Positions 53,299 to 64,000 of a stretch of 64,000 nt of DNA are shown piece by piece (the first letter of the stretch is position 1; each line of letters starts with the position of its first letter). The translations under genes were made by a program, and so were the position numbers. Origin of the DNA: Flavobacteriaceae bacterium (GTDB lineage Bacteria > Bacteroidota > Bacteroidia > Flavobacteriales > Flavobacteriaceae). The notes under the pieces are model-generated. The model saw only the letters and a list, made by a program, of their open reading frames with translations, made no database searches and was not told the DNA's origin. The stretch lies in the NCBI GenBank assembly GCA_013001285.1, contig JABDMU010000029.1, forward strand, positions 1 through 64,000. The letters are read 5' to 3'.

Positions 53299-54534
53299 TT
53301 ATGAAGGTTTTAGTCCTTTTTTCAATTCTATTACGGTAATTTCGGGCCAGATGCCCACACGGCCTGGAAAGGCCAAGTATCCAAAGCCACGGTTCACATT
53401 TATATATTGACCAAACTTTTCATAGATCCCAGCCCATTGTTTATAGCGCCATTTTACAGGACTCCATTTAAAAATACCTGGAATTTCAATTCCAAATTGC
53501 ATGCCATGCGTATGTCCACTTAGGGTTAAATGATAATGTAGATCATGATCAACAACTTCGGCTTCCCAATGCGATGGATCATGACTTAACAGGATCTTAA
53601 AATCATCTTTATCAATGTTGCTTATTGCAGCATTAAGATCACCAGCTTTTTTAAAACCGCCTTTCCCCCAATTTTCAACGCCAATAATAGCAATACGCTC
53701 GCCATTTTTTTCAATGAATCGATGTTCATTTAAAAGTAAATCGAAGCCAATATCTTTTTGAAGGTCCTTAAGCGCATTCAAATTTGAAGATTTAGCTTCC
53801 TCCGTTTCCCAACGCAAGTAATCACCATAATCATGATTTCCGAGTACTGAATACATACCATCTTTGGCTTTAAGCTTTTTAAAGATGTCGACATATGGAT
53901 GCATTTCTTCTGCCTTGTTATTAACCATGTCGCCTGTAAAAACAATAGTATCGCTTTCTTGTTGGTTTATAAGATCAATAGCATAATCAACCTTCTTGAT
54001 ACTATCAAAACTTCCTGAATGAATATCGCTAATTTGTGTAATTCTGTAACCATCAAAGGCATCAGGAAGATCTTCATAGTACAAATTGTAATTCAAAACC
54101 TTAAAATTGTATTTGCCTTTAGAAATCCCGTAGATAAAAGACGTAAAAGGTATGGCAGCAATGCCCAGCGCAATTTGTGAAACAAACTTTCGACGCCCTT
54201 CAAACATACTTCCATTAGTAGTTGTACTTCCAGAAAATTTATTGAAAATTCCTTCAAATAATCTAAACACATCTTCTCCAAGCATCATAACCAACAGCAT
54301 TGCCTTCGGAAGAAAAAGTGTGATTAAAAATGCAAAAGCATAGCCATGTGCCTGAGAAAAACCATCACTTCGATTAAATCCGAAATACATGAAAATAAAA
54401 TTGCCAAGAACAATTAGACTCATGACCCAATATGAAAATTGTGCCAAGCCATTTTTTGTTATTGTTTTAAAAGCCTGGAAAGCGTAAATGTCAATTGCAA
54501 TGAAGATTAATAGAAAGATAATCCAACGCAGCAT
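53299..54534 (-). CDS. Membrane metallophosphoesterase (YkuE-like)
   Basis: A 411-residue protein with three N-terminal helices (about 2-18, 33-52 and 68-87) and another near 120-135, then a calcineurin-like phosphoesterase domain (about 160-411). Metal motifs are all present: ISDIHSGS, FTGDMVNN, LGNHDYGDY, LLSHDPSHW and LSGHTHGMQFG. Similar proteins hydrolyse lipid phosphates such as UDP-diacylglucosamine-type or cyclic nucleotide substrates; the substrate here cannot be stated. A -7 element lies directly upstream at 54551-54558. Confidence 0.92.
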   Translation of the reverse strand: MLRWIIFLLIFIAIDIYAFQAFKTITKNGLAQFSYWVMSLIVLGNFIFMYFGFNRSDGFSQAHGYAFAFLITLFLPKAMLLVMMLGEDVFRLFEGIFNKFSGSTTTNGSMFEGRRKFVSQIALGIAAIPFTSFIYGISKGKYNFKVLNYNLYYEDLPDAFDGYRITQISDIHSGSFDSIKKVDYAIDLINQQESDTIVFTGDMVNNKAEEMHPYVDIFKKLKAKDGMYSVLGNHDYGDYLRWETEEAKSSNLNALKDLQKDIGFDLLLNEHRFIEKNGERIAIIGVENWGKGGFKKAGDLNAAISNIDKDDFKILLSHDPSHWEAEVVDHDLHYHLTLSGHTHGMQFGIEIPGIFKWSPVKWRYKQWAGIYEKFGQYINVNRGFGYLAFPGRVGIWPEITVIELKKGLKPS

Positions 54535-54575: not shown

Positions 54576-57038
54576 CTATCTTATTAAATTGTTAAACGTT
54601 TTAATTTTCAATGCATCAATCTGAGTCGATTTTGATTTAAAATGTACAATCTTGGCCTCATTGGGTAACAGATCAAAGAAGTTGTCACTGAATTTACCAT
54701 GAACATTTGTGCTTAAAAAGACATCTTTTTGAAACACGTTGGATTTTAAATGAATCTCAAAACCATTGTCTACTTTTACGATTTTCTGCACAATTGTGGC
54801 TGTGGGTAAAATCAAATCTTTTGGTTTTGCTAAATAGAATATTGATGTTTCGGAATTGAAACTAGCCACAACCATATGTTTATTTGGGTTGATTTTTAGT
54901 TCTTTCAAATCAAGGCTATGTACCCTTCGCGAAGTTCCTGCCTGAGCTGTGACCTCTTTTGATTCTTCATGTATGATCTTTCCATAAAAATCCTGAATCG
55001 TTAAGGTGAGCATACCTTGATCATCTCTTAACTCATCATTAACAATGAAGGTCGATAAATTATCTTCCGAAAGTTCTGAAGAGATCAATATGTTCTTAAA
55101 TGATCGTTTTGCTTTATAATGCAGAGCCTTCCAATTACCTAAAAAATCGATACTTGACCATGAAACGGCAGGCCAACAATCATTAAGTTGCCAATATAAT
55201 GTTCCCATATTGTATGGTCTTGCTCTTCGATGCGCTTCAATGCCTTTGCCGATCCCATAAGCTTGTAACAATTGACTTAAATAAATATAATCTTCTGGAT
55301 TCTTCGACAGTGGAAAATCCCGTTGCATATATGCTTCTATAATTTGAAAACCGCGTGAATGTTTTTGATGATTTTTAAATCCATTAGTCGAAATATCTAA
55401 AGTGTCTAATTGATTCATATAGGAAATAGTCTCCTTACTCGGGAATGACTGAAATCCGAATTCACTCATAAATCGTGGCACATTTTTTTCAAGATGTTCA
55501 AATGGATAGCCATCATGCCAAATCCACCAATCGTGAGCATCGCCTTCAAATTTATATTTAGGATTTCCACGGCCATACTTCGGTGAACTTTCCCAATAAT
55601 CAGTATCCGTTAAATTGGCAACTGTATTTGGCAGAATTGAATCGAATACCTTTAAATAGTTCTTCCAGATTTCAACTTTTTCTTCATCACTTCTGTTAGC
55701 TTGCCATCCCCATCGGTGCCAGCCTTCAGAGTTTTCATTATTGCCACACCATAAAGCGATCGATGCATGTTTTCGTAATCGTTTGACATTATATTCGGCT
55801 TCCAACCTAACATTTGTTAAGAATTCTTCATCACCAGGATACATAGCACAAGCAAACATGAAATCTTGCCAAATTAATATGCCCTTCTCATCACACAGAT
55901 CATAAAAAATCGAATTCTCATAAATACCACCACCCCAAACTCGAAGCATATTCATATTGGCCTCAACAACATCCTCTAGCAATTGATTGTAATCCTCCTT
56001 TTTAACTTTATTTTGCAAGCTATTTTGAGGAATATAATTCGCACCTTTTACATATACAGGAACATCATTCACTTTAAAATAAAAAGATTCTCCAAGACTG
56101 TCTTTTTCAGTGACCAAATCAATTGATCTCAATCCTTTTTTAAACTTAAGGGTATCCAGTATTGTCTTTTTATAACGAAGGATAAATTTTAGTTCATATT
56201 GGTAGGGATCACCAAGATTATGGGGCCACCATAGTTTCGGATTGTTTATTGTGAATTCATAGCTTCCGGTAGTGTTTAATTGATGAGTGGAATTTATGGT
56301 GTCGTTGACTAAAATATCTAAATACTTGTTTTCAAGATGTTCAGCTGCAACAGCAACATGGGCTTTTAATTTAGCTTCGTTAGACTCTAAGGTGTTTTGT
56401 TGAATATAAACATCTCTGATCTTTGCATCATTCCAACCTAATAAGCTTACCGGCCGCCATATGCCACTCGTATTAAGTTTCGGTCCCCAATCCCAGCCAT
56501 ATTGAAATTGGGCTTTTCTTGTAAAAATACGATTCCCTTCAGGCAAGGCATATGGTAATTTTGCCTTTGCTCTTTCTTCATGAATACCTGTGTTTTCAAA
56601 CACTATTTTGAGATCGTTTTTGGACTTCAACAATGGTTTTACCGGAATACTATAGGATCGAAATGCGTTATTGGTATTTAAAATAAGACTGTCATTTAAA
56701 AAAACCTCAGCATATGTGTCAAGACCATCAAAGGTCAGTTCAATATGCTGCTTATCAAGTAGCGCTTCGGAACATGAAAATTGAGTTTTATACACCCAGT
56801 CTTTTTCGAAAACCCATTGTACATTTTTTTCATTATCTCCAATAAAAGGATCTGTAATCACTTCGTTTTCTAGAAGGTCTGAGATAACATTTCCTGGAAC
56901 CTCCGCTGGGATCCAAACCGAATCACCTAACATTTTAAATTGCCAAGAACTATTTATGATTATTTTTTCTGGAGTGTCAAACTTTTCCTTACAGCCAAAA
57001 ATCAATACAAACAGAAATAATACAATTTTAGGCCTCAT
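54576..57038 (-). CDS. Beta-mannosidase lipoprotein (glycoside hydrolase family 2)
   Basis: An 820-residue GH2 enzyme with a lipoprotein signal (LFVLIFGCKEK, lipid Cys about 16). The GH2 sugar-binding domain (about 25-190), immunoglobulin-like domain (about 195-300) and TIM barrel (about 300-640) are in order. The acid/base Glu is in WCGNNENSEGWHRWGW and the nucleophile Glu in RFMSEFGFQSFP; the second pattern is the beta-mannosidase type. Beta-mannose is the core sugar of N-glycans, which fits the GH20 and GH92 neighbours. The start overlaps the cutC end by 11 bases. Confidence 0.92.
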   Translation of the reverse strand: MRPKIVLFLFVLIFGCKEKFDTPEKIIINSSWQFKMLGDSVWIPAEVPGNVISDLLENEVITDPFIGDNEKNVQWVFEKDWVYKTQFSCSEALLDKQHIELTFDGLDTYAEVFLNDSLILNTNNAFRSYSIPVKPLLKSKNDLKIVFENTGIHEERAKAKLPYALPEGNRIFTRKAQFQYGWDWGPKLNTSGIWRPVSLLGWNDAKIRDVYIQQNTLESNEAKLKAHVAVAAEHLENKYLDILVNDTINSTHQLNTTGSYEFTINNPKLWWPHNLGDPYQYELKFILRYKKTILDTLKFKKGLRSIDLVTEKDSLGESFYFKVNDVPVYVKGANYIPQNSLQNKVKKEDYNQLLEDVVEANMNMLRVWGGGIYENSIFYDLCDEKGILIWQDFMFACAMYPGDEEFLTNVRLEAEYNVKRLRKHASIALWCGNNENSEGWHRWGWQANRSDEEKVEIWKNYLKVFDSILPNTVANLTDTDYWESSPKYGRGNPKYKFEGDAHDWWIWHDGYPFEHLEKNVPRFMSEFGFQSFPSKETISYMNQLDTLDISTNGFKNHQKHSRGFQIIEAYMQRDFPLSKNPEDYIYLSQLLQAYGIGKGIEAHRRARPYNMGTLYWQLNDCWPAVSWSSIDFLGNWKALHYKAKRSFKNILISSELSEDNLSTFIVNDELRDDQGMLTLTIQDFYGKIIHEESKEVTAQAGTSRRVHSLDLKELKINPNKHMVVASFNSETSIFYLAKPKDLILPTATIVQKIVKVDNGFEIHLKSNVFQKDVFLSTNVHGKFSDNFFDLLPNEAKIVHFKSKSTQIDALKIKTFNNLIR

Positions 57039-57744
57039 CTTTTATTGCATCTAGGATACCTCTTATTATTTTCTCATCGGAATATCGCATTTCATCATCT
57101 TCAAATAATTTTCCATCTTTAGAAACACATTCGCCTATTTTACAGAGCGCCGCAGCATGAATCTCATTAAATCCAGCCTCTTTAAATTTTATTGCGTTAG
57201 ATGGATTGATGCCGCCACCAGGCATGATCTCTATTTTGTTATTTGCAATCACTCTTAGCTCCTTTAATAAATCAAGACCCTTGTAGGCATAATATTCTTG
57301 TCCAGAGCTTAATAATCTATCGGCTCCCAAGTCAATCAAATCGATTACGGCTTTTTTGGGATCAGTAAGAAGATCGAAAGCGCGATGAAATGTAAACGGT
57401 AAAGGAAGAGACATTTCTATCAAAGCTTTTGTTTGTTCAATATGCACAGCATAATCTTGAGTTACTGATCCAGATACAATACCAGCACATCCCATTTCTT
57501 TTGCCAATAAGAGATCTGATGTCATCATTTCAAATTCGTCATCTGAATATGTAAAATTGCCTGGTCGAGGCCGAATGAGCACAAAAACAGGAATGTTAAG
57601 ATCAGCCAAAACCTTTTTTATCAATCCAAAGGATGGTGTTAGACCACCAACTTCAAGATCGACACAAAGTTCAATACGATGCGCTCCAGCATTTTGAGCT
57701 GCAATAGCCGATTGATATGAATTTGCACAAACTTCTAAGATCAT
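57028..57744 (-). CDS. cutC: CutC family TIM-barrel protein
   Basis: A 238-residue protein with CutC signatures ILEVCANSYQSAIAAQNAGAHRIELC, GGLTPSFGLIKKV, VFVLIRPRPGNFTYSDDEFEMM and IMPGGGI. The name comes from an old link with copper tolerance in E. coli which, as I recall, is doubted; the chemical activity is unknown. Here it sits two bases after a GH20 hexosaminidase gene and overlaps the beta-mannosidase gene by 11 bases, and there is no copper gene near it. A role with sugars or sugar phosphates is therefore worth considering. It has no signal peptide, so it acts in the cytoplasm. Confidence 0.92.
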   Translation of the reverse strand: MILEVCANSYQSAIAAQNAGAHRIELCVDLEVGGLTPSFGLIKKVLADLNIPVFVLIRPRPGNFTYSDDEFEMMTSDLLLAKEMGCAGIVSGSVTQDYAVHIEQTKALIEMSLPLPFTFHRAFDLLTDPKKAVIDLIDLGADRLLSSGQEYYAYKGLDLLKELRVIANNKIEIMPGGGINPSNAIKFKEAGFNEIHAAALCKIGECVSKDGKLFEDDEMRYSDEKIIRGILDAIKDEA

Positions 57745-57746
57745 AT

Positions 57747-60029
57747 TTAATTGATACTAATTTCGTCAATAAAGGTCCATGCTTTATTGCCAGCACCTTG
57801 TCTTTTTTCTGGGATAATTCCAAAATTAGGGATTTTAAAAATTATCGTCTTAGCACGAATCTTTTCAAATTCTTCATTGATATTGGCAATAATTGATTCT
57901 CCAGCATTAATTTTAATTAATTTAGATATGACTTGGTCTTCAGTAATAAATTCAATAATTATTTCCTTTGGTGCATAGATCCATTGTCCTTGTCCGTTAT
58001 GGAATCGCGTCTTTATACTAGTGACCTCAATATCGTCTTCAAAATCAATAGTGATCCTTAAATCATCGCCCCAAAATCCTAGCCATTCTTTATCACCATA
58101 ACGATTATCACTTCCAACAATCCCATTAATAAGTCCGTTTTTTCCACTTCCTGAATAGGCACTGTGCGGTTCTACGTTTAATTTAATTTTTTGACCAACA
58201 GCTTTATGAAAATTGATGTTCTGTTCAAATGTTGCTCCTAATTTTTTTTCTTTTTTGAAAACTGCTGCTCTTATATCTGTATCAGAATCGATCCAGATTT
58301 GTTCATCATATAATGAAGATTCAAAAGTGGGTTCGGTGCCATCAGTTGAAAACCGTATGTCCTTATTTTTTGTTAAGGTTTCCAACTTATAAAATACACC
58401 GTCTTGAGTTGAAACTAAATGTCCCTCAACTTCGTATAAGTGATTGGCATAATTAATATTCAATGCTTCTAATCGTTCGTGAAAATTTTCTAATCTTTCC
58501 ACGAAATGACTGTAATTTTTCTGATCTTCATTAGACCAGAGCACCTCACACATAGCCAATATTCTTGGGAAGGCCATGTATTCAACTTTAGCATCGGTAG
58601 GCATGTATTCTGTCCAAATATTTCCCTGTGCTCCTAAAACGTATTTCGATTCCTCCTGATTTAATTCTTCAGGAATCGGATTGAAATGATATACTTTTTC
58701 TAGCGGAAGAAATCCACCTATAGCAAGAGGTTCATTTTCATTATCAGATTGGTAATAATCGAAATAACAATGTGAAGTGGGTGTCATAATAACCTGATGC
58801 TTTTTTTTCGCAGCTTCAATTGCACCATTCATGCCACGCCATGACATGACTGTGGCATTCGGCGCTAACCCGCCTTCCAAAATTTCGTCCCACCCAATTA
58901 TTTGTCTGCCTTTACTATTTAAATAAGACTCGATTCTAGAAATGAAATAGTTTTGCAGTTCATGTTCATCTTTAAGCCCTTCTGATCGAATCCTTTTTTG
59001 ACATTCAGAACAAGCCTTCCAATTTGTTTTTGGTGCTTCGTCTCCTCCAATATGAATGTACTCACTTGGAAACAAAGCAATAACTTCGTCAAGAACAGCT
59101 TCTAAAAATTCGAAAGTTTGTTCTTTACTGCAATAAATATGTTCAAAAACACCCCATTTTGTAGCCACATCCACTTGTCTACCTGTACACCCTAATTCTG
59201 GATAGGCTGAAATTGCGGCTTGCGAATGGCCAGGCATTTCAATCTCGGGAATGATTGTTACATGTCGCTTCAATGCATAAGCAACAATTTCTTTTACTTC
59301 TTCTTGAGAATAATAGCCTCCATAACGTTGGCCATCAAATTGATGAGGCTGATCACTGTAATGTCCGATCAGGGTTTCATTTCGGAATGCAGCGATCTCG
59401 TTGAGTTTCGGATATGTTTTGATTTCTATCCGCCAGCCTTGATCCTCGGTAAGATGCCAGTGAAACGTGTTCATTTTCAGCATGGCCAAAGCATCTATGT
59501 ATTTTTTAATGAACGCAACTGAATACATATGCCGTCCTACATCCAGATGCATTCCACGATATTTGAATCGAGGATAATCTTCGATGATCTGACACGGAAT
59601 TTTTATAGGTTCGACATTAGCGCCTCCCTTTTCTAAATCTGAAGGCATTAATTGTCTTAACGTTTGTACTGCATAAAAAGCGCCTTGATCACTTGTTGCC
59701 TTTATTTTTATTTTATTTGCTGTGATCTCTAAAGAATAGCCTTCCGAATTTTTTATGTTGGGGTCAAGAATAAACTCAATATTGGCATTATCTTCATTCT
59801 TTAATACGCTTCCTTTAGCAATAAAATTTTTCAAAAAATTGCCAGAAATATTAAATTCATCAGGAAAATTGATCGTGGTAGAACCATCCAATTTAAATTG
59901 TCCTTCATTAAGAATTTGACTTTGTGGCAATGGAATAACATAAGAATTTAAGCGAACATCGTTGGTCTTTTGACAGCAAAATAACAACTGTATAAAAAGG
60001 GTAAGACCAACTATTTTCTTGATAGGCAT
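57747..60029 (-). CDS. Beta-N-acetylhexosaminidase lipoprotein (glycoside hydrolase family 20)
   Basis: A 760-residue GH20 with lipobox LLFCCQK (about 19). An N-terminal GH20b-like domain (about 25-145) is followed by the TIM barrel with YRGMHLDVGRHMY, HWHLTEDQGWRIEI and the catalytic Asp-Glu pair in HIGGDEAPKTNW. Then comes a chitobiase-type domain (FSTDGTEPT, about 565-625) and a C-terminal carbohydrate-binding discoidin-like region (about 640-760, ending in WTFIDEISIN). It removes terminal GlcNAc or GalNAc. It is the first gene of the minus-strand glycan operon and diverges from the GH92 gene with only 41 bases between. Confidence 0.94.
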   Translation of the reverse strand: MPIKKIVGLTLFIQLLFCCQKTNDVRLNSYVIPLPQSQILNEGQFKLDGSTTINFPDEFNISGNFLKNFIAKGSVLKNEDNANIEFILDPNIKNSEGYSLEITANKIKIKATSDQGAFYAVQTLRQLMPSDLEKGGANVEPIKIPCQIIEDYPRFKYRGMHLDVGRHMYSVAFIKKYIDALAMLKMNTFHWHLTEDQGWRIEIKTYPKLNEIAAFRNETLIGHYSDQPHQFDGQRYGGYYSQEEVKEIVAYALKRHVTIIPEIEMPGHSQAAISAYPELGCTGRQVDVATKWGVFEHIYCSKEQTFEFLEAVLDEVIALFPSEYIHIGGDEAPKTNWKACSECQKRIRSEGLKDEHELQNYFISRIESYLNSKGRQIIGWDEILEGGLAPNATVMSWRGMNGAIEAAKKKHQVIMTPTSHCYFDYYQSDNENEPLAIGGFLPLEKVYHFNPIPEELNQEESKYVLGAQGNIWTEYMPTDAKVEYMAFPRILAMCEVLWSNEDQKNYSHFVERLENFHERLEALNINYANHLYEVEGHLVSTQDGVFYKLETLTKNKDIRFSTDGTEPTFESSLYDEQIWIDSDTDIRAAVFKKEKKLGATFEQNINFHKAVGQKIKLNVEPHSAYSGSGKNGLINGIVGSDNRYGDKEWLGFWGDDLRITIDFEDDIEVTSIKTRFHNGQGQWIYAPKEIIIEFITEDQVISKLIKINAGESIIANINEEFEKIRAKTIIFKIPNFGIIPEKRQGAGNKAWTFIDEISIN

Positions 60030-60070: not shown

Positions 60071-63004
60071 ATGAAATTATATCCATTCTTCATTTTTCTT
60101 ATTATTATTTCTGTATCGGGATGTTTGAGTTCAACCGATAAAACCCCTGCCCAAAAAGACCAGCAATTAATCTCCTATGTCAATCCGTTTATAGGAACCG
60201 GAGGTCACGGTCATACTTATCCAGGAGCAACAATGCCATTTGGTATGATGCAATTGAGTCCTGATACACGACTAGATGGTTGGGATGGATGCTCAGGCTA
60301 CCATTATAGCGATGACTACATCTATGGATTTTCACACACACATTTAAGTGGAACTGGGGTTTCTGACTATGGTGACATATTATTAATGCCAACAAATGAG
60401 ATCGTTTTTAACAACGGTTCCGATGGCAAAAAAGGATATCGCGATCATTTTTCGCATGATAATGAAATTGCCGAACCTGGGTTTTATAAAGTGCACTTAG
60501 ATTCAACCAATATCGATGTAGAATTGACCGTTTCTAAAAGAAGTGGAATGCATAAATATCAATTCCCATCGGCAGAAAATCAAGTGGTTATATTAGATCT
60601 AATTCATCGTGATAAAGTGTTGGATGCAAAAATTGAAAAGATCTCTGATACTGAAATTCAAGGGTATCGCTTTTCGGATGCTTGGGCAACCGACCAACGC
60701 TTATTTTTCTATTTCAAAACATCTCATCCATTTACCGACATGTTGCAGTCGCCTCCCAAATATGGCATGCCAGGGGGTAGAAAAACAGCCTTAACTTTTA
60801 TTAATCCCAATAACGAACCTGTTTATATTAAAATTGGTATCTCTGCGGTTGATGTGGCAGGAGCCAAAAAGAATCTCGAAGCAGAAATTGCGGATAAATC
60901 ATTTGAACAGGTAAAAAAGGAAGCTCAAGATCTTTGGGAAAAACAACTAGAAAAGATAATAATTGAGAGTGATAATTTAGATTATAAAACTAATTTCTAT
61001 ACTGCGCTTTACCATACCATGCTTGCTCCTAATCTTTATCAAGATGTGGATGGCAAATATCGTGGAATGGATCTCAATATTCACCAAACAACTGCATTTG
61101 ATTATTACACTGTTTTCTCTCTTTGGGACACCTACAGAGCGGCTCATCCACTTTACACAATTATTGAACAAGAACGAACCAATGATTTCATTAAGACCTT
61201 CATTTCAAAATATCAAGAAGGAGGTATCATGCCAATTTGGGATCTTTCTGCAAATTATACAGGTTGTATGATCGGTTATCATGCCGTTCCAGTAATTGCA
61301 GATGCCTATTTAAAAGGCATTAAAAATTATGATGTTGAGAAAGCATTTGAAGCCATGAAACATAGTGCTTCACAAAATAAATTGGGTCTGGAATCCTATA
61401 AAAAATACGGGTTTATTCCTGTTGAGGAGGAAAGCGAATCGGTATCTAAAACCTTAGAATATGCCTATGACGATTGGACCATTGCTCAAATGGCTAAATC
61501 TCTAGGAAAAAGTGATGATTATAAATATTATTTACAACGCGCCCAGAACTATAAGAATGTTTTCGATCCTGAGACGCAATTCATGAGAGGCAGATTTCGA
61601 AATACCTGGTTTTCACCTTTTGATCCTTATGAGGTCAATTTTAATTATACCGAAGCTAATGCTTGGCAATACAGTTATTACGTTCCTCAAGATGTTTCTG
61701 GTTTTATGAATTTATTAGGAGGCAAAAAACAGTTGATAGCGCATTTAGATAAGTTATTTACTGCAGAAGCAGAAACCTCAGGAAGAGATCAGGCTGATAT
61801 CACGGGATTAATAGGGCAATACGCTCATGGCAACGAACCAAGTCATCATATGGCATACCTTTATAATTATGCTGGTAGACCTGATAAAACGATGGAGAAA
61901 GTTCATAAAATATTGACAGAACTTTATCAAAATGCGCCTGATGGGATTTCGGGAAATGAAGACTGTGGCCAAATGAGTGCTTGGTACGTGTTTAGTTCTT
62001 TAGGGTTTTATCCGGTTACACCAGGATCAAATGACTATATAATTGGCACACCTTTGTTTAAAAAAGCAACCATCAATCTTGAAAGCGGAAAGCAATTCAC
62101 CATTAATGCTCATAATTTAAGTAGTACTCATATTTATATTGAGAGCGCTCGACTTAACAACAGTAAATTAGAAAGCACATTTATTACCCATGAGGATATA
62201 ATGAACGGTGGCGTCTTAGACTTTTATATGACCGATAATCCGGCAATCTGGGGAAGTCGCGAGGGTAGCGAACCTATTTCTTCAATAGATGAGCAACTTA
62301 TTGTGCCTATGCCATATATTGCTGAAGGTCAGGTGGCGTTTAAAGGTGAAACAGAAGTTGTATTAAAAAACAGTGACAAAGAGGCATTAATTTTTTATCA
62401 ATTGAATGATCAGGAATTTAAACAATATCAAGAGCCAATTAAGATCAAGGAGCCATTGGAGTTATCTGTTTATTCTGAAAAAAATGGAGTAAAAAGTGCC
62501 ACTATGACGACGCAATTTTATAAGATCGATCCTAACATTAGTATCACCCTTGAAACTGAATATGCTAACCAATATAATGCAGGCGGTAATGATGCACTAA
62601 TAGATGGCATTCTTGGCACACTGGATTTCAGAACAGGTACTTGGCAAGGCTATTGGGATGAAGATCTCATCGCGACTATCGATCTTGGTTCAATAAAACC
62701 AATTTCAAATGTTTCGGTAAACTTTTTACAAGACCAAAGATCTTGGATCTTTTATCCAACCGAAGTTAGCTGTTTTGTCTCAACGGATGGTATAAATTTT
62801 AAACTCTCTGAGAAAGTGCTCATTAATTCAACCTTGCAGTCTGAAAATTCAGAAATTAAAACCATTTCATTTAAGCAAGATCCTACAAATGGCCGTTATA
62901 TAAAGATCATTGCAAAAAAATTAGGCGTCCTACCAGTGTGGCATCTGGGATATGAGCATGATGGGCGGAGTTGGATATTTGTTGATGAAATCAGAATAAA
63001 TTAA
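60071..63004 (+). CDS. GH92 family alpha-mannosidase lipoprotein
   Basis: A 977-residue exo-enzyme with lipobox IISVSGCLSS (lipid Cys about 18). GH92 signatures: NPFIGTGGHGHTYPGATMPFGMMQLSPD (broken here for length at about 36-64), YDYTVFSLWDTYRA-like FDYYTVFSLWDTYRAAHPL and the catalytic region GNEDCGQMSAWYVFSSLGF. These calcium-dependent enzymes strip alpha-mannose from N-glycans. After residue 715 come the same two modules as in the neighbouring GH20: a chitobiase-type sandwich and a discoidin-like domain ending SWIFVDEIRIN. It starts the plus-strand operon with a VOC protein and an MFS sugar transporter. Confidence 0.93.
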   Translation: MKLYPFFIFLIIISVSGCLSSTDKTPAQKDQQLISYVNPFIGTGGHGHTYPGATMPFGMMQLSPDTRLDGWDGCSGYHYSDDYIYGFSHTHLSGTGVSDYGDILLMPTNEIVFNNGSDGKKGYRDHFSHDNEIAEPGFYKVHLDSTNIDVELTVSKRSGMHKYQFPSAENQVVILDLIHRDKVLDAKIEKISDTEIQGYRFSDAWATDQRLFFYFKTSHPFTDMLQSPPKYGMPGGRKTALTFINPNNEPVYIKIGISAVDVAGAKKNLEAEIADKSFEQVKKEAQDLWEKQLEKIIIESDNLDYKTNFYTALYHTMLAPNLYQDVDGKYRGMDLNIHQTTAFDYYTVFSLWDTYRAAHPLYTIIEQERTNDFIKTFISKYQEGGIMPIWDLSANYTGCMIGYHAVPVIADAYLKGIKNYDVEKAFEAMKHSASQNKLGLESYKKYGFIPVEEESESVSKTLEYAYDDWTIAQMAKSLGKSDDYKYYLQRAQNYKNVFDPETQFMRGRFRNTWFSPFDPYEVNFNYTEANAWQYSYYVPQDVSGFMNLLGGKKQLIAHLDKLFTAEAETSGRDQADITGLIGQYAHGNEPSHHMAYLYNYAGRPDKTMEKVHKILTELYQNAPDGISGNEDCGQMSAWYVFSSLGFYPVTPGSNDYIIGTPLFKKATINLESGKQFTINAHNLSSTHIYIESARLNNSKLESTFITHEDIMNGGVLDFYMTDNPAIWGSREGSEPISSIDEQLIVPMPYIAEGQVAFKGETEVVLKNSDKEALIFYQLNDQEFKQYQEPIKIKEPLELSVYSEKNGVKSATMTTQFYKIDPNISITLETEYANQYNAGGNDALIDGILGTLDFRTGTWQGYWDEDLIATIDLGSIKPISNVSVNFLQDQRSWIFYPTEVSCFVSTDGINFKLSEKVLINSTLQSENSEIKTISFKQDPTNGRYIKIIAKKLGVLPVWHLGYEHDGRSWIFVDEIRIN

Positions 63005-63007
63005 GCT

Positions 63008-63373
63008 ATGGCATTTAATTATTTAATACCCATGTTGGAAGTTGAAAATATGAATGAAACTATTGCGTTTTATGAATCCACATTAGATTTTAAATGTGTT
63101 GGAAGAGATGGTAATTCCTGGGCTGTTATTCAAAAGGATGACATTTCTGTTATGTTTTCTGCACGATTCAATAAAGAAGAATATCCACATACCATGTTAA
63201 CCGGAAGTCTGTACATTTATACCGATGATATTGATGTGATCTGGCAAATTTTAAAAGACAAAGTGACCATATGTTATCCCATTGAAAATTTCGCTTATGG
63301 GATGCGTGAGTTTGCTATTTTCGATTGCAATGGGTATCGCATACAATTCGGACAAGAACTCGATAAAAACTAA
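63008..63373 (+). CDS. VOC (glyoxalase/bleomycin resistance) superfamily protein
   Basis: A 121-residue single VOC domain, opening FNYLIPMLEVENMNETIAFYESTLDFKCVG and closing EFAIFDCNGYRIQFGQEL, the two halves of the beta-alpha-beta-beta-beta repeat. It resembles bleomycin-resistance and dioxygenase-like members but the metal-ligand set is incomplete: the usual first His is replaced in LIPMLEV, while the Glu at FGQE is kept. It lies three bases after GH92 and two bases before the MFS transporter, so it is within the glycan operon. A role such as sugar isomerisation is speculation. Confidence 0.85.
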   Translation: MAFNYLIPMLEVENMNETIAFYESTLDFKCVGRDGNSWAVIQKDDISVMFSARFNKEEYPHTMLTGSLYIYTDDIDVIWQILKDKVTICYPIENFAYGMREFAIFDCNGYRIQFGQELDKN

Positions 63374-63375
63374 AT

Positions 63376-64000
63376 ATGAATCAACAATCCTATCGCTCAT
63401 CGTTTATTCTGTTAACCGTTCTCTTTTTTCTCTGGGGCTTTATAACCGTTTTAGTAGATAGTTTGATTCCGCGACTCCGTGAATTATTTACATTGAGCTA
63501 TTTTCAGGCAGGTATGGTACAATTTGCTTTTTTTGGAGCATATTTTTTACTTTCAATTCCTGCCAGTTATATTTTATCAAAAATTGGGTATAAAAAAGGT
63601 ATTCTATTAGGCTTGCTCACAATGGCAACGGGGTGTTTATTATTCTATCCGGCAGCCTCATATCGCATTTTTGGGGTTTTTATGCTGGCTTATTTTATTC
63701 TCGCTGGCGGTATGACCATTTTACAAGTTGCAGCAAATCCTTTTGTTGCTGTTTTAGGAAGTGAGGAAGGCGCTTCAAGTCGCTTAAATTTATCGCAAGC
63801 ATTTAATTCCTTGGGGACAGCAATTGCACCAGCTATAGGCGCATTATTTATATTGAGTGATACTATTAAAACCGAAGATGAAATAGCCTCATTGACAGAT
63901 GTTGCTAAGGAATCTTATTTGGCTTCTGAAGCGGCGGCAGTCCAAAAACCGTTTATTGGATTGGCCATTTTTATTGCCTTGATTGCGGGAATTTTTCTTT
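63376..64000 (+). CDS. Sugar MFS transporter, FucP/GluP type (5' part, cut by window edge)
   Basis: The first 208 residues of a major facilitator protein; the rest lies beyond the window. Five or more helices are visible. The opening LTVLFFLWGFITVLVDSLIPRLRELFTLS and the internal LAGGMTILQVAANPFVAVLG with SRLNLSQAFNSLGTAIAP are typical of the fucose/glucose/galactose:H+ symporter family of Bacteroidota. It probably brings the mannose or GlcNAc released by the GH92, GH20 and GH2 enzymes into the cell. It starts two bases after the VOC stop, in the same operon. Confidence 0.92.
   Translation, partial: MNQQSYRSSFILLTVLFFLWGFITVLVDSLIPRLRELFTLSYFQAGMVQFAFFGAYFLLSIPASYILSKIGYKKGILLGLLTMATGCLLFYPAASYRIFGVFMLAYFILAGGMTILQVAANPFVAVLGSEEGASSRLNLSQAFNSLGTAIAPAIGALFILSDTIKTEDEIASLTDVAKESYLASEAAAVQKPFIGLAIFIALIAGIFL

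Follow-up and report, generated by a model that had tools for sequence, protein, structure and literature searches.

Gene context ties CutC to glycosylasparaginase in Bacteroidota and suggests a part in amino-sugar and N-glycan breakdown

Why does a gene with the name of a copper protein lie between two glycosidase genes? CutC occurs from bacteria to humans and was named for copper. The window analysed here is the whole stretch of 64,000 nucleotides at positions 1 to 64,000 of contig JABDMU010000029.1 (assembly GCA_013001285.1), from a Flavobacteriaceae bacterium. Within it cutC (57028..57744, minus strand) is flanked by genes for a GH20 beta-N-acetylhexosaminidase and a GH2 beta-mannosidase. 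A preliminary description of this stretch stressed the beta-mannosidase and proposed an enzyme acting on a product of N-glycan breakdown, for example a derivative of mannose or of N-acetylglucosamine (GlcNAc). We find that the main partner of cutC in Bacteroidota is not GH2 but glycosylasparaginase (AGA), which cuts GlcNAc from asparagine, and that cutC is linked with the end of the glycan at which GlcNAc joins asparagine. CutC very probably belongs to a pathway of amino-sugar or N-glycan breakdown.

Which genes accompany cutC across the phylum? Our sample comprised 296 genomes spread evenly over Bacteroidota, of which 92 hold cutC. Up to 20 kb was fetched around 94 cutC genes, giving 95 loci with the window; L083 lost its cutC in gene calling and was dropped, so that 94 loci, window included, were counted. 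Of the 94, 47 have AGA no more than six genes away from cutC, and in 34 it occupies position -1 on the same strand, half of these direct pairs (17/34) overlapping or standing no more than 20 bases apart. The window enters these neighbour counts as a locus without AGA, its AGA gene lying past the window end; only the CutC tree scores it as AGA-near. AGA neighbours occur across 11 of 20 family codes and 30 of 57 genus codes. On that tree, built from 93 sequences after the two-piece broken cutC of L095 had been left out, nearness to AGA changes at least 14 times, so the AGA-near state is not one inherited block.

The mannose side of the glycan fares differently. A GH2 mannosidase is found within six genes of cutC in 11 of 94 loci, GH20 in 8 and GH92 in 5, against 47 for AGA, a comparison on which we discarded the idea that CutC works in the mannose branch. 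The neighbour count proposed in the preliminary description, for GH2, GH20 or GH92 within six genes, comes to 17 of 93 loci. Taken alone, this figure would place cutC mostly apart from glycosidase genes, the outcome that the description itself had named as speaking against its idea; once AGA is added the count rises to 52 of 94. The emphasis on mannose therefore has to be given up. The broader suggestion of an enzyme for an N-glycan breakdown product gains on its GlcNAc side, from AGA as the commonest neighbour, from the gene order PNGase F-type gene-AGA-cutC-GH92 at locus L021 and from the amino-sugar genes found beside cutC elsewhere. A NagB/PIG-L cluster gene directly follows cutC at two further loci; both domains are clear in L003, and the NagB domain falls under the cut-off in L033.

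Could such pairings be conserved gene order or shared regulation, with no function in common? At ten of the 94 loci, all from the family of the window (L055, L056, L058, L062, L065, L068, L071, L072, L075 and L081), cutC lies two genes before argS in a conserved and apparently unrelated order; it directly follows fabH in six of the ten, and AGA is directly upstream in L056 and L065. A metallophosphoesterase gene after cutC in many Flavobacteriaceae loci fits the same explanation. The AGA pairing, however, extends over 11 family codes with its repeated changes on the tree, and in other phyla cutC again has amino-sugar neighbours, though the genes differ. We consider order without function very improbable. 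E. coli cutC is likewise near argS, and the metallophosphoesterase adjoins cutC in Flavobacteriaceae also where GH2 is absent. Three genomes carry two cutC genes (L014/L074 in G150, L018/L077 in G138, L028/L042 in G253). In each, one copy adjoins AGA directly and the other does not, and these second copies may differ in function.

Does the link hold for whole genomes? Of the 92 genomes with cutC, 83 have an AGA-like gene, against 55 of the 204 without it, an odds ratio of 25; this and the two control ratios below ignore shared ancestry. GH92, taken as a control, is present in 63 of 92 and 45 of 204 genomes (odds ratio 7.7), and a multicopper oxidase domain in 58 of 92 and 60 of 204 (odds ratio 4.1). 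The association of AGA with cutC persists both within GH92-positive genomes (56/63 vs 15/45) and within GH92-negative ones (27/29 vs 40/159). AGA-like genes were identified by a single genome search. Its threshold lets in weaker matches, of about 175-220 bits, some of which may not be true AGA, and the search misses AGA in some genomes that have it beside cutC (G091, for example). A stricter alternative set, to which AGA seen at cutC loci is added, favours cutC genomes and was not used for the odds ratios.

The multicopper oxidase control leads to the reading implied by the family name, namely that CutC serves copper homeostasis and is only a passenger in glycan operons. The oxidase does co-occur with cutC above chance, although its odds ratio is far under that of AGA. 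Among 195 CutC sequences position 27 is a cysteine in 192, a point in favour of this reading, whereas position 6 is a cysteine in only 147; the window protein has both, and we take C6 to align with one of two cysteines proposed for human CutC. A Pfam tally of direct neighbours lacking a label of ours, covering 117 of 133, gives a Cu/Zn superoxide dismutase domain in 3 of the 117. This is the only copper protein among the 25 commonest of 112 families, the part of the tally shown, so single copper neighbours could be missed. The statement in the preliminary description that no copper gene is near holds for the seven proteins scanned in this stretch. Worms and human cells become more sensitive to copper when CUTC is silenced, and the human protein binds copper weakly and is judged an unlikely chaperone (PMC11083455); the silencing phenotype stands against dismissing copper. 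The copper benefit of cutC overexpression in E. coli has been attributed to the sigma-E response (PMC6338753). MicL, an RNA of that response, derives from the cutC region (PMC8216713). A copper role gets little support from gene context, and we hold this explanation to be very improbable.

How is the locus itself built? The cutC gene encodes a TIM barrel of 238 residues that matches PF03932 with an E-value of 4.2e-63 (212.9 bits against a cut-off of 23.3); on the NCBIfam equivalog model NF008603 (copper homeostasis protein CutC) it scores 193.3 bits, under the cut-off of 311. The assembly of 2.88 Mb contains no second CutC match. The GH20 gene (57747..60029), cutC and the GH2 gene (54576..57038) all lie on the minus strand, with a gap of 2 bases between the first two and an overlap of 11 bases (57028..57038) between the 3' end of cutC and the 5' end of the GH2 gene, an arrangement that the preliminary description had given correctly. 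The overlap suggests translational coupling of cutC and GH2. Both glycosidases have lipoprotein-type N-termini, GH2 carries mannosidase Ig domains, and 41 bases after it comes a metallophosphoesterase gene (53299-54534, minus strand).

On the plus strand a divergent operon begins with a GH92 alpha-mannosidase (60071..63004). Three bases on lies a glyoxalase/VOC-type gene (63008..63373, PF00903) and, 2 bases further, a FucP-type permease of the major facilitator superfamily (MFS; FucP match 1.6e-63), which is cut by the window end (63376..64000; contig 63376-64683). Beyond base 64000 the operon continues into AGA (contig 64680-65687, plus strand), which overlaps the permease gene by 4 bases. 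This AGA scores 365 bits to glycosylasparaginase structures against 127 to isoaspartyl peptidases, belongs to PF01112, aligns with the beta chain of 1ayy from query residue 194 and has a twin arginine at its N-terminus. By their established family functions GH92, GH2, GH20 and AGA would jointly dismantle an N-glycan core down to asparagine. No SusC/SusD pair is found among the ten proteins scanned, seven in the window stretch and three in the extension. The VOC gene was considered as a possible partner of CutC; among the genes of the sample the VOC protein of the window matched two, its own copy and one at L005. The E. coli VOC protein YecM is encoded directly before cutC, and the presence of a VOC/glyoxalase-type gene in the AGA operon here is possibly chance.

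Does the trio of GH20, cutC and GH2 recur? A second set of 80 named loci, biased to close relatives and apparently overlapping the systematic one (L148/L041, L160/L006), left 79 for counting after L107 had lost its cutC in gene calling. The order GH20-cutC-GH2 is found in 11 of the 79, in related genera, and in all 11 cutC overlaps GH2, by 8, 11, 17 or 71 bases and by exactly 11 in six, with gene starts called mechanically. Because the same order and overlap recur, the trio goes beyond chance. In this set AGA lies within seven genes in 44 of 79 loci, and AGA, GH2, GH20 or GH92 in 59.

What surrounds cutC outside Bacteroidota? CutC was matched in 67 plasmid records, 15 of them from Escherichia, Salmonella or Klebsiella, one of which we examined; altogether 24 records were chosen by hand and not at random, 18 being annotated in the stretch and 6 not. 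Amino-sugar or sugar-kinase genes lie near cutC in 14 of the 18 annotated records, or 13 of 17 without the sole Bacteroidota record, Hymenobacter, which has AGA-CutC. Of the six unannotated stretches, four contain genes that our profiles assign to GH20, BadF, M81 or amidase, and two, L195 and L198, contain none. The order is MurQ-ROK-CutC-Gfo/Idh-ABC in Qingshengfaniella, amidase-ROK-CutC by NagA, SIS and a GlcNAc kinase in S. meliloti, CutC-GntR-SIS-NagA in Sphingomonas, GH20-M81-MFS-CutC in Loktanella and Peteryoungia, and ROK-M81-ABC-CutC in Palleronia. Kozakia has NagA, ROK, CutC, GH20 and NagB, and two Paracoccus records have SIS and ROK with NagA or a NagA-type gene, one of them also NagB. 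Asticcacaulis and Pseudoalteromonas show CutC-BadF, and Listeria, the weakest case, has PTS-SIS-CutC, where PTS is a sugar phosphotransferase system. The assignment of an amino-sugar context rests on the BadF kinase in Asticcacaulis and Pseudoalteromonas, on ROK in Palleronia and on SIS with a sugar PTS in Listeria, and GlcNAc specificity is putative there. A plasmid of Alkalihalophilus (Bacillota) combines an asparaginase II, a peptide ABC importer, an aminopeptidase, CutC, an alpha-fucosidase, a ROK kinase and fucose genes.

Several unrelated families of amide hydrolase stand beside CutC. Besides AGA and the PNGase F type these are asparaginase II, amidase and M81, an MlrC-like metallopeptidase; the last three may be GlcNAc-asparagine hydrolases. 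M81 lies near CutC in the three Alphaproteobacteria Loktanella, Peteryoungia and Palleronia, and its gene overlaps cutC by 4 bases both in a Cloacimonadota contig (L155, 3254-5403) and in a Streptantibioticus plasmid (L200, 3189-6244).

These contexts could also be those of a general enzyme of GlcNAc catabolism, an isomerase, an epimerase (GlcNAc-6-phosphate to ManNAc-6-phosphate, for example) or an anomer converter beside a kinase, with no link to glycosylamines; a NanE-like epimerase is one candidate. The alphaproteobacterial records, which hold ROK, NagA, NagB, SIS, GH20 or Gfo/Idh and in part have no amide hydrolase, would fit it, as would the sugar-phosphate barrels MJ1099 and hexulose-phosphate synthase among the fold relatives of CutC and the G176-x-G178 loop after its strand 7, which resembles known phosphate loops. 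The link in Bacteroidota, however, is to AGA in particular and goes beyond GH92, and the ordinary route through kinase, NagA and NagB has no known open step. We regard such an enzyme as possible though doubtful.

What does the protein itself reveal? The first barrel strand begins right at the N-terminus of CutC and leaves no place for a signal peptide; the protein is therefore presumably cytosolic. Its AlphaFold2 model (pLDDT 92.4) matches CutC structures with Z-scores of 28.5 to 36.7, the best being 3iwp (36.7 over 235 residues) and 1twd (36.1). The nearest fold other than CutC is MJ1099 (4rc1, 4u9p; Z 21.7, 209 residues, 2.5 A, 18% identity), followed by hexulose-phosphate synthase (Z 20.6) and many further barrels, mostly sugar-phosphate enzymes, at Z of about 17-19. 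Across the 195 sequences E4, E25, D124 and H196 are invariant and R23, R58 and H120 nearly so. These polar residues sit in or soon after barrel strands, the region that holds the active site in barrel enzymes. None of the 30 positions conserved to at least 93% is a lysine, and the best lysine position of the window protein, K82, is a lysine in 120 of 195. We take MJ1099 to be MfnB, which makes a furan from sugar phosphates; MfnB and class I aldolases use a Schiff-base mechanism. Such a mechanism is unlikely for CutC since no lysine is conserved, and an MfnB-type or class I aldolase activity was rejected.

The likeness to MJ1099 would nonetheless suit an enzyme of metabolite repair that disposes of a by-product of amino sugars, such as the 2,3-dehydrated 6P-chromogen I formed from GlcNAc-6-phosphate by a SIS protein, if MJ1099 is indeed the furan maker we presume. 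Six records have a SIS or MurQ-like gene close to CutC, and NagS, a relative of MurQ, produces 6P-chromogen I, with toxicity as the result (PMC12680351). Yet NagS is reported to be limited to Streptomycetaceae (PMC12680351), and repair would leave the AGA link in Bacteroidota unexplained; we consider it improbable.

How could CutC then serve an N-glycan cluster? In the account we prefer, the two divergent operons would form one cluster for degradation of the N-glycan core. The exported GH92, GH2 and GH20 would strip mannose and GlcNAc, the exported AGA would cut the last GlcNAc off asparagine, and the FucP-type permease would import a product. CutC, as the member of the GH20-GH2 operon that has no export signal, would act on an amino-sugar product inside the cell. 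AGA would release not GlcNAc but the glycosylamine 1-amino-GlcNAc, which is longer-lived at neutral or alkaline than at acid pH. CutC would hydrolyse this to GlcNAc and ammonia or, if a ROK or BadF kinase has acted first, its 6-phosphate to GlcNAc-6-phosphate and ammonia. The gene arrangement, the local and genome-wide link with AGA, the amino-sugar neighbours in chosen records of other phyla, the fold and the conserved polar residues are observed; the enzymatic nature of CutC, a cytosolic substrate and the reaction itself are inferred. Glycosylamine hydrolysis is proposed because CutC adjoins unrelated amide hydrolases and sugar kinases and because the Alkalihalophilus cluster repeats several functions of the alf-2 pathway of Lacticaseibacillus casei. 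In that pathway, which consumes Fuc-GlcNAc-Asn, AGA is described as yielding 1-amino-GlcNAc, termed "not metabolizable", which decays non-enzymatically with the help of acid (PMC6960285). As a whole this account falls somewhat short of an even chance; that CutC clears the glycosylamine of GlcNAc or its 6-phosphate, the specific reaction predicted, is a tentative proposal that we rate as possible at best.

Several observations count against this account. L. casei uses Fuc-GlcNAc-Asn with the glycosylamine step held to be spontaneous (PMC6960285). AGA mostly carries an export signal, a twin arginine being present in 83 of 96 AGA-labelled sequences (two of them isoaspartyl-type), and CutC does not, so the glycosylamine would need import. 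Half of the 94 loci have no AGA near cutC; eight of the argS loci, from the Flavobacterium family, are among them, with an AGA match elsewhere in all eight genomes. Fifty-five genomes carry an AGA-like gene without cutC, and the co-occurrence statistics, as said, disregard ancestry. The fold of CutC is common to many sugar-phosphate enzymes with differing reactions. No amino-sugar gene lies near cutC in the Cetobacterium, E. gallinarum, Entomospira and E. coli records, and an asparaginase, amidase or M81 gene is absent from the fetched stretch in both Paracoccus, Asticcacaulis, Sphingomonas, Pseudoalteromonas, Kozakia and Listeria. We found no assay or genetic experiment that addresses a sugar reaction of CutC.

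The AGA link and the amino-sugar neighbours in several phyla give CutC a pathway and a short list of substrates, and as these can be obtained, the question can be settled by assay and knock-out. A search of the open-access literature by title and start of abstract found no link of CutC to AGA or to GlcNAc catabolism, which is weak evidence of novelty; PMC10434189, PMC3146418 and PMC5111406 list CutC, in the parts consulted, merely as a copper gene. Should the glycosylamine reading prove true, N-glycan breakdown would have an enzyme for a reaction held to be spontaneous, with consequences for the turnover of glycoproteins in animals as well. The widest form of the idea, that CutC from bacteria to animals hydrolyses the GlcNAc glycosylamines left by glycosylasparaginase and PNGase-type amidases and owes its copper name to historical accident, is unlikely as it stands.

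How does the cluster compare with known systems? Human CUTC (3iwp) and Shigella CutC (1twd) share the full-length fold with the protein described here, at about 40% identity to 3iwp; the differences are its score under the NF008603 cut-off and its place within an N-glycan cluster. MJ1099, the nearest barrel other than CutC, is set apart from CutC by the latter's lack of a conserved lysine. The glycosylasparaginase structures 9gaa and 1p4k, presumably from Elizabethkingia, are close homologues of the AGA of the divergent operon (365 bits) and so concern the partner of CutC, not CutC. The alf-2 system of L. casei resembles the present cluster in joining a glycosylasparaginase to an MFS permease for N-glycan remnants (PMC6960285). 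In the portion of that source used here no CutC is among the named genes and its AGA, AsnA2, has no signal peptide, whereas in our cluster AGA carries an export signal and CutC is present. Its PepV is annotated as M20 (PMC6960285), and a 455-residue gene that follows cutC at L012, L026 and L029 (one genus code) is perhaps the M20 peptidase that appears with five members in the direct-neighbour tally. The plasmid cluster of Alkalihalophilus, a genus named for alkali, shares several of the alf-2 functions and adds CutC to them.

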